The position numbers were made by a program, and so were the translations under genes. The notes under the pieces were generated by a model. The model was given only the letters and a program-made list of their open reading frames with translations. It was not told the DNA's origin and searched no databases. Of a stretch of DNA of 38,361 nucleotides, positions 30,934-36,396 are shown one piece after another; the stretch's first letter is position 1, and every line of letters begins with the position of its first letter. The DNA is taken from contig JAGGVH010000042.1 of NCBI GenBank assembly GCA_021158105.1, forward strand, positions 1-38,361. The letters are read 5' to 3'. The DNA comes from Microcaldota archaeon. Lineage in GTDB: Archaea; Micrarchaeota; Micrarchaeia; Anstonellales; JAGGVH01.

Positions 30934-31147
30934 CGTCGGGGGAGGGATACTCAAAAAATCCCTTTTTCTTTTAAAAGAAAAAGGTCTTTCTTTGGGATTG
31001 AAAGACCCTTTTTCTTAGTGGAGGTTCTTTAGGATGTCCGAAGGACACCGAAAGAAAGTCCAAGGAAAGGGATTTCATTTGAACCCTCGAATGCTTACGC
31101 AAACTGGATTAGCAGTCCAGCGCCCTACCAGGCTAGGCGACCCCGAC
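30934..31147 (-). tRNA. tRNA-Ser(GCT) interrupted by a T-loop intron
   Basis: On the minus strand the 5' exon runs 31147-31077: acceptor GTCGGGG, D-arm with CTAGCCTGGTAG, anticodon stem CTGGA/TCCAG with GCT at 31113-31111, long variable arm TTTGCGTAAGCATTC, and T-arm GAGGG TTCAAAT. The sequence then breaks off for 130 nt. It resumes at 30946 with CCCTC, then CCCCGAC, and discriminator G at 30934. The joined product is 84 nt with full acceptor and T-stem pairing, a normal type II Ser tRNA. CCA is not encoded. Exact junctions can slide a few bases around the repeated AT. Confidence 0.88.
30947..31076 (-). other. 130-nt intron in the T-loop of tRNA-Ser
   Basis: The intron splits the T-loop at its 3' side. 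Its ends form a stem, AAATCCCTTT at the 5' end with AAAGGGATTT at the 3' end. Exon CAAA can pair with intron TTTG next to it, giving a relaxed bulge-helix-bulge. The inside is rich in AAAGAAAG and CTTTCTTT, forming strong hairpins (for example GGTCTTTC...GAAAGACC). No open reading frame for an endonuclease is visible. Confidence 0.82.
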
Positions 31148-31296
31148 GTCAGTCCCCCACATGTAGATTATTGTTTGAAAAGATTTTTAAACTCTTATTA
31201 AGCTTTTTGGTATGTTGCCACAGGCTACAAATATATTTTTAAACACTATATACTATAATTGGTGATGTGTTTGAGTTACGGGCCCGTAGCTCAGCT

Positions 31297-31338
31297 AGCC
31301 TTGGACTGAAGTCCAAGATTTTCAGACAAGGCCTGAAA
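31297..31338 (+). other. tRNA-Lys intron 1, 42 nt, in the D-loop
   Basis: The bulge-helix-bulge is clear. The central helix is TCAG (31291-31294) with CTGA (31333-31336). One bulge is CTA (31295-31297) and the other AAT (31337-31339). The inner stem is GCCTTG (31298-31303) with CAAGGC (31327-31332), enclosing a CTTGGAC/GTCCAAG hairpin. Cutting each bulge after its second base gives the D-loop AGCTTGGTA, a normal form. Confidence 0.85.
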
Positions 31339-31359
31339 TGGTAGAGCGGTTGGCTCTTA

Positions 31360-31532
31360 TGAATCCCTTTCTTTCTGTAGAAAGAAAGGTCTTCACCCCA
31401 AAGAAAGACAGTTTGTGAATGTTCACGAAAAAGAACATTTTGTGAATGTTCACGAAAAAGAATATTTTGTGAATGTTTTTTAATCCAAAGAAAATAAGTT
31501 TCTTTGGGGTAATGTATAGGGATTCAAGAGCA
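31360..31532 (+). other. tRNA-Lys intron 2, 173 nt, at canonical position 37/38
   Basis: The intron follows A37 (31359) and ends before A38 (31533). The inner stem GAATCCCT (31361-31368) pairs with AGGGATTC (31518-31525). The exon CTCTT, holding the anticodon, pairs with AAGAG (31526-31530), making the helix of a bulge-helix-bulge. Inside are a CTTTCTTTCTG/AGAAAGAAAG hairpin and a 27-nt tandem repeat. Confidence 0.85.
31412..31477 (+). repeat. 27-nt tandem repeat inside tRNA-Lys intron 2
   Basis: Units start at 31412, 31439 and 31466, a constant 27-nt period, with about 2.4 copies. Each unit holds TTTGTGAATGTTCACG followed by AAAAAGAA and a variable CAT or TAT. GTGAA and TTCAC inside each unit can form a small hairpin. 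The copies differ at only one position, so the expansion is recent or under conversion. Confidence 0.85.
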
Positions 31533-31551
31533 ACCAATAGGTCTAGGGTTC

Positions 31552-31611
31552 TGTCCTTTTCTTTCTTTGAAAGAAAGAAAACGACACCGAAAAGAAAGAA
31601 AGGATGCCTAA
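31552..31611 (+). other. tRNA-Lys intron 3, 60 nt, in the T-loop
   Basis: The intron splits TTC from AAAT in the T-loop. It contains the perfect hairpin TTTTCTTTCTTT / AAAGAAAGAAAA, then GACACCGAAAAGAAAG and AAAGGATGCC. The bulge-helix-bulge is weak: GTCC near the 5' end can pair with GGAT near the 3' end, and AGG with CCT. The junction choice is set by restoring the T-arm. Confidence 0.78.
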
Positions 31612-31660
31612 AAATCCCTACGGGCCCGTTTTATTAACTAATTTTGGTTATTTAATTTTT

Positions 31661-31946
31661 AGGAGGAGATCAAAAGTCCAAATGAATCGTTCAGATTCAT
31701 GTGTGCATTGAACGTTAGTTCAATAGCATGTTCCCCCGCGGTTCCGCATTATTATCCCATACATTCAGGGGGGATCAGGAATCCAAATGAATCAGGGATT
31801 CATTGGTCCTGTGAACGTTACGACGTTCACATGGAACGTAGAACTGAGGGGGATGTTCCCCCGCGGTTCCGTATTATTATTCTACAAATTCAGGGGGATC
31901 AGGAGTAACGTAGAACTGAGGGGGATGTTCCCCCGCGGTTCCGAGT
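31661..31946 (+). repeat. GC-rich hairpin repeat array (possible structured RNA)
   Basis: This gene-free stretch between tRNA-Lys and the CBS gene is built of repeated blocks. TGTTCCCCCGCGGTTCCG occurs at 31729-31746, 31854-31871 and 31926-31943. ATTATTAT..., then CAGGGGGATCAGGA, occurs at 31748-31780 and 31873-31904. AACGTAGAACTGAGGGGG occurs at 31835-31852 and 31907-31924. Two hairpin types are kept with changed sequence: ATGAATC/GATTCAT (31682-31700; 31786-31804) and ATTGAAC/GTTCAAT (31707-31724) against GTGAACGT/ACGTTCAC (31811-31830). GGGGGA-TGT-TCCCCC hairpins lie at 31848-31862 and 31920-31934. No coding signal is seen. Confidence 0.75.
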
Positions 31947-36274: not shown

Positions 36275-36396
36275 TGCGGGGGGCCGGATTTGAACCGGCG
36301 CAGGCCTAAACCACTGGATGGCTTATTATGCATACATTATATGTAGCATGTTTAATCTTGAGTCCAGCGCGTTTGACCAGACTCCGCCACCCCCGC
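36275..36396 (-). tRNA. tRNA-Leu(CAA) with an anticodon-loop intron
   Basis: On the minus strand the 5' exon (36396-36357) has acceptor GCGGGGG, the D-arm GGCGGAGTCTGGTCAAACGC and anticodon stem-loop CTGGA CTCAAG. The 3' exon (36319-36275) starts ATCCAG, continues with the long variable arm and GCCGG TTCAAAT CCGGC, and ends CCCCCGC plus discriminator A. The joined product is 85 nt with complete acceptor and T-stems. The anticodon is CAA (36360-36358). CCA is not encoded. Confidence 0.9.
36320..36356 (-). other. 37-nt intron of tRNA-Leu at position 37/38
   Basis: The intron lies between G37 and A38. It folds as ATGC/GCAT with TACAT/ATGTA inside, closing an ATA loop. The central helix of a bulge-helix-bulge is weak here, so the splice form is likely relaxed. 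An ambiguous A at each end lets the junction slide by one base. Confidence 0.72.

Follow-up and report, generated by a model that had tools for sequence, protein, structure and literature searches.

How can a tRNA gene lying in four pieces still yield a working tRNA, and where did the sequences that interrupt it come from? Both questions are raised by a lysine tRNA gene in the 38,361-nt stretch of DNA analysed here (the window: contig JAGGVH010000042.1 of the Micrarchaeota assembly GCA_021158105.1), which belongs to a metagenome-assembled genome (MAG) of 50 contigs and 89% completeness. When window positions 31280–31628 are spliced, three introns are removed and four exons of 17, 21, 19 and 17 nt join into a complete 74-nt tRNA-Lys(CTT) with a perfect acceptor stem. 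The exon coordinates proposed in an earlier note, made from the letters of this stretch, prove exact: ARAGORN reads the joined 74-mer as tRNA-Lys(ctt), and 0/2000 base-shuffled versions are called a tRNA. In the raw window, ARAGORN gives no call for the unspliced gene (349 nt), and the sole Rfam match at cut-off is the Leu tRNA; since both tools miss the unspliced form, ordinary annotation may overlook Lys(CTT). Very probably, this is a working gene that is spliced at three bulge-helix-bulge (BHB) sites and owes its introns to a lineage-specific spread (Table 1).

Table 1. Window coordinates of the tRNA-Lys(CTT) gene and of other features.
Feature	Position	Strand	Remarks
tRNA-Lys(CTT) exon 1, positions 1-17	31280..31296	+	acceptor stem and D-stem 5' strand
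Intron 1, D-loop 17/17a, 42 nt	31297..31338	+	central helix TCAG/CTGA, inner helix GCCTTG/CAAGGC
Exon 2, 17a-37, anticodon CTT	31339..31359	+	ARAGORN on spliced form
Intron 2, canonical 37/38, 173 nt	31360..31532	+	internal hairpin repeats
Exon 3, 38-56	31533..31551	+	
Intron 3, T-loop 56/57, 60 nt	31552..31611	+	dispersed family
Exon 4, 57-73, discriminator G	31612..31628	+	
Divergent neighbour tRNA-Ser(GCT)	30934..31147	-	exons 31147-31078 and 30947-30934; 130-nt T-loop intron (59/60)
Interspersed repeat directly 3' of Lys(CTT)	31678..31943	+	further copies beside or inside tRNA genes
tRNA-Leu(CAA)	36275..36396	-	one canonical intron, 37 nt

The junctions were examined with a simple pairing rule, by which the four exon bases ahead of the first bulge form a helix with the four intron bases that lead into the second, and each strand is cut behind the second base of its 3-base bulge. 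All three Lys(CTT) junctions show 4/4 central pairs, namely TCAG-CT^A ... CTGA-AA^T in the D-loop, CTCT-TA^T ... AGAG-CA^A in the anticodon loop and GGGT-TC^T ... GCCT-AA^A in the T-loop (GGGT/GCCT). The introns that the earlier note had claimed in the D-loop, at 37/38 and in the T-loop are thereby confirmed, with the 4-bp helix and the 3-nt bulges present at each. Across the genome, 40 of 55 introns reach 4/4 pairs in the annotated register, and no shifted register brings more than 10 to this level; a random intron 4-mer does so in 2.8% of cases. Because some D- and T-arm junctions were placed using the BHB rule itself, the unbiased part of this test consists of the anticodon-arm introns (4/4 pairs in 18/32, shifted registers at most 7) and the introns at T-loop site 56/57, for which the tRNA fold dictates the position and which pair fully in 11 of 11 cases.

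Furthermore, the 56/57 junction helix covaries: across eight distinct junctions, 97% of the cells are paired and 3/8 pairs are changed on both sides. This covariation beats every shifted register and nearly all shuffles, the shuffle counts not being probabilities because the sequences are related. A second lysine gene, Lys(TTT), located on another contig and carrying three introns at the same sites as Lys(CTT), retains the inner helix of the D-loop intron with a paired change (GTCTTG/CAAGAC). The D-loop and anticodon BHB structures are both present in the minimum-energy fold of the whole Lys(CTT) precursor. Placement of the T-loop junction by minimum-energy folding alone was rejected because that fold favours other hairpins; the tRNA fold was used to set this junction, and pairing and covariation served to test it afterwards. 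Elsewhere in the genome, a Gln(TTG) T-loop insert, an Arg(TCT) anticodon-stem intron and one Arg(CCG) T-arm intron gave no BHB fit and are regarded as uncertain.

A splicing endonuclease of probable broad specificity, as had been predicted for this genome, is present; its sequence assigns it to the epsilon2 type, and as such it would act as a homodimer with broad cleavage. This 379-aa EndA can be aligned over its whole length with the epsilon2 EndA of ARMAN-2 (4FZ2/9W2K; residues 2-379 vs 5-387, E 1.5e-98), contains two PF01974 stretches and, by this alignment, is a single chain of three units. The catalytic residues are kept (Tyr226/His241/Lys272, equivalent to Y236/H251/K282 of ARMAN-2 EndA), as is the specificity loop tied to broad specificity (Tyr151-Lys152, equivalent to Y160/K161). 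In the ARMAN-2 enzyme, replacement of either loop residue by alanine leaves no detectable cleavage (PMC12397907). The relatives of this EndA are Micrarchaeota records in 8 of 8 cases, which fits the pointer to this phylum in the earlier note. RtcB is also encoded in the genome. Taking the enzymes and the splice motifs together, a single Lys(CTT) precursor would be cut at three BHB sites by the epsilon2-type EndA, and its exons would be joined by RtcB. The RtcB gene itself (C30:14051-16735) is one 940-aa open reading frame split by a long in-frame insert, probably an intein.

The interruption of Lys(CTT) is shared by most tRNA genes of this genome, and many of the introns are related and apparently mobile, a wider pattern that the earlier note did not see. 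In a survey by searches and fetched stretches, for which some genes are possibly missing or more heavily disrupted, 41 tRNA genes were resolved by hand, and the ARAGORN anticodon agrees for 40/41 spliced forms. These include 38 interrupted genes with 55 introns (32 in the anticodon arm, 18 in the T-arm and 5 in the D-loop). With the addition of Gln(TTG) (C31:4389-4718), which has inserts in all three loops and a T-loop junction that does not fit the BHB rule, the totals become 39/42 interrupted genes and 58 introns. Four genes carry three introns: Lys(CTT), Lys(TTT), Gly(CCC) and Gln(TTG). An intronless Lys tRNA was searched for and not found in the assembly, and this includes the intronless Lys(CTT) copy that, according to the earlier note, would together with a lack of spliced reads mark the present locus as a relic. 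Since both Lys tRNAs are interrupted, the cell would depend on splicing to read lysine codons, barring a further gene that the 89%-complete assembly lacks. Val GAC, Pro GGG and Gln CTG are among the tRNA genes not found, and may be missing or more disrupted. Rfam at cut-off returns 15 tRNA matches in the genome vs the 42 genes resolved, so that tRNA-based completeness of such genomes would be underestimated.

The origin of the introns is addressed by their mutual likeness. The 56/57 T-loop family occupies 11 genes for six amino acids (Lys x2, Arg x3, Ala x2, Glu x2, Trp and eMet), and its members have common ends and mostly common bodies, with identities of up to 96-100% between copies; eMet, the most divergent, was included on site and pairing. 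The Lys(TTT), Trp and Arg(TCT) members share 95-97% identity over 86 nt. In intron 3 of Lys(CTT), the first 50 nt match the introns of Ala(TGC) and Ala(GGC) at 100% and the remaining end matches as well; a single internal length change of 31 nt seems to separate the Lys and Ala introns. A second family, at 94-98%, is found in the T-loops of Ser GCT, Leu TAA and Cys and in the anticodon loop of Gly(CCC). Intron 2 of Lys(CTT) has a 64-nt start part 94% identical to the Thr(GGT) intron and another part 85-91% identical to Val introns. The presence of near-identical introns in tRNA genes with unrelated bodies, as in Thermoproteales intron transposition, suggests a recent spread of introns through the genome.

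The three Lys(CTT) introns would then be the local outcome of a process in which BHB introns spread among the tRNA genes of this Micrarchaeota genome. The T-loop family would have been copied, intact and splice-ready, into at least 11 of these genes, in each case into the conserved T-arm sequence GGGTTC^AAATCCC. Possible copying routes are precise DNA insertion, T-arm recombination, and reverse splicing followed by reverse transcription; PMC4090602 gives the copying mechanism of tRNA introns as unknown in Thermoproteales too. A tentative and somewhat doubtful extension is that the short non-coding hairpins of the order are self-spreading introns, moving among tRNA positions (T-loop, anticodon loop) and into 23S rRNA with only their last few bases adapting to the new BHB partner, perhaps through EndA/RtcB reverse splicing or tRNA-targeting repeat insertion.

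Comparison with relatives bears on the direction of change. In a genome of the same genus (G001), the same divergent Ser(GCT)/Lys(CTT) pair is found, where Lys(CTT) has one intron of ~49 nt at the canonical 37/38 site and is without the D- and T-loop introns. The Lys(TTT) ortholog of G001, followed by the same gene start as here, is intronless. None of the ten G001 genes matching the eleven carriers (0/10) has a 56/57 intron: six T-loops are uninterrupted and four contain other introns at other T-loop sites. When 84 genomes of the order were searched for the family A intron, it turned up at full length in this genome only, with partial matches elsewhere. For Lys, the simplest reading of these sequences is intron gain in this lineage.

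Several points weigh against such a spliced and recently invaded gene. The minimum-energy fold of the Lys(CTT) precursor does not contain the T-loop BHB, and the T-loop site is without an outer helix (HBh' form). The occurrence of Lys(CTT) splicing, together with any order in which the introns would leave, is inferred from sequence only. G001 is 87% complete with ~6% contamination, so that absences there, including that of the 56/57 intron, are uncertain; intron loss in G001 is conceivable, though less likely than the gain favoured here. Moreover, in G009, which belongs to another family of the order, a related 56/57 intron lies in tRNA-Ser(GCT), from which the intron family may predate the genus; the intron type itself may be older than the genus.

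The last observation is in line with a different history, in which relatives have lost introns that date back to a common ancestor, the likeness across tRNAs reflecting gene conversion between tRNA genes and not intron movement. This history is improbable, though it has some footing: the G009 Lys(TTT) gene also has a D-loop intron at the same site plus a T-loop intron, and both Lys genes of the present genome have the unusual T-stem TAGGG/CCCTA, which makes conversion between the two plausible. However, near-identical introns occur across isotypes whose exons differ (Lys vs Ala, Trp vs Arg), and the Lys genes of several other families (in G002, G003, G032 and G033) are intronless. In addition, Glu(TTC) has G57 immediately after its intron, the base also present at 57 in the G001 ortholog, whereas most other carriers have A57; the downstream exon base was thus not replaced by theirs.

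An interspersed repeat at this locus offers another possible source. It was found in five places (window 31678-31943, C13:2257-2560, C30:20071-20177, C8:36584-36650 and C31:4404-4511), all at tRNA genes: 3' of Lys(CTT), Phe and Val(TAC), and inside Arg(CCT) and Gln(TTG). The copy in the Arg(CCT) anticodon intron matches at 99% over 67 nt, and another lies in the Gln(TTG) T-loop insert. With five of five places at tRNA genes and two of them inside inserts, the repeat could be a source element that inserts beside or inside tRNA genes and becomes an intron wherever it can be spliced. Such a role is unlikely, since the repeat differs in sequence from the main T-loop family, its copies are few, no transposase was linked to it, and the Gln(TTG) T-loop junction does not fit the BHB rule. 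A decayed Lys(CTT) pseudogene, with another Lys tRNA doing the work, would agree with the failure of standard gene finders, the length of the gene and the ~89% completeness of the assembly, but is very improbable: the acceptor stem is perfect, the usual tRNA signature bases and an intact BHB at each junction are present, no other Lys(CTT) was found in the assembly, and Lys(TTT) is disrupted likewise. Finally, an artefact joining unrelated pieces, conceivable in a MAG of 50 contigs, has next to no chance given that the exons are exact, every junction has a BHB, Lys(TTT) shows the same layout on a different contig and the sister locus is syntenic.

Three-intron tRNAs and tRNA intron transposition are already known; such a spread in Micrarchaeota, with an epsilon2 enzyme, appears to be new. 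PMC4033280 and PMC4090602 describe, for Thermoproteales, tRNA intron transposition on a large scale and multi-intron tRNAs, with three introns as the maximum. The likeness extends to at most three introns per tRNA, many interrupted genes, similar introns in different tRNAs and both canonical and non-canonical sites; Pyrobaculum islandicum tRNA-Pro(UGG), for instance, has introns at 25/26, 37/38 and 56/57. Unlike the Thermoproteales described there, the present genome belongs to another phylum, has an epsilon2 and not an (alpha-beta)2 EndA, uses the D-loop site 17/17a, and has intron bodies formed by purine/pyrimidine-tract hairpins. A closer likeness in enzyme kind is found in ARMAN-1 and -2, with epsilon2 EndA (PMC12397907) and listed multi-intron tRNAs (PMC4033280).

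Multi-intron tRNAs are thus on record for Thermoproteales and Micrarchaeota, as stated in the earlier note, and a D/anticodon/T triple is also known from tRNA-Ile(UAU) of the red alga Cyanidioschyzon merolae. There, removal is ordered, with the anticodon intron last, and unlike here the endonuclease is eukaryotic and the sites are 12/13, 37/38 and 53/54 (PMC9602550). The tRNA-Thr heterogeneity of Caldiarchaeum resembles the present case in recent intron gain or loss linked to mobile DNA, and differs in involving an integrase-bearing element at a single locus (PMC3293823). The literature searched yielded no account of a Micrarchaeota genome with intron families dispersed in this way or with as many as four genes that carry three introns, which is not proof of absence. 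If the spread took place as proposed, tRNA introns have spread heavily in at least two archaeal lineages that are far apart, both with a broad-specificity lysine-loop EndA of their own, and the link between enzyme specificity and intron invasion becomes testable in a sister pair differing at defined loci.

Some intron-like sequences also occur outside tRNA genes. The 23S rRNA gene contains a 140-nt insert (C46:6531-6670) with tRNA-intron-like hairpins that fits the BHB rule. In other genera of the order (G038 locus L094, G015 locus L090 and G012 locus L146), hairpins resembling intron bodies stand free, directly 3' of tRNA genes. Repeated 5' tRNA-like fragments (GCGGGGGTGGCGG...), followed by short palindromes, precede the true Leu and Cys tRNA genes (C12:5654-5735; also on C30 and C11, upstream of Leu and Cys tRNAs). 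Among the tRNA genes themselves, C41:815-926 encodes a tRNA-Ile with anticodon TAT and one intron, and the same kind is found in G001.
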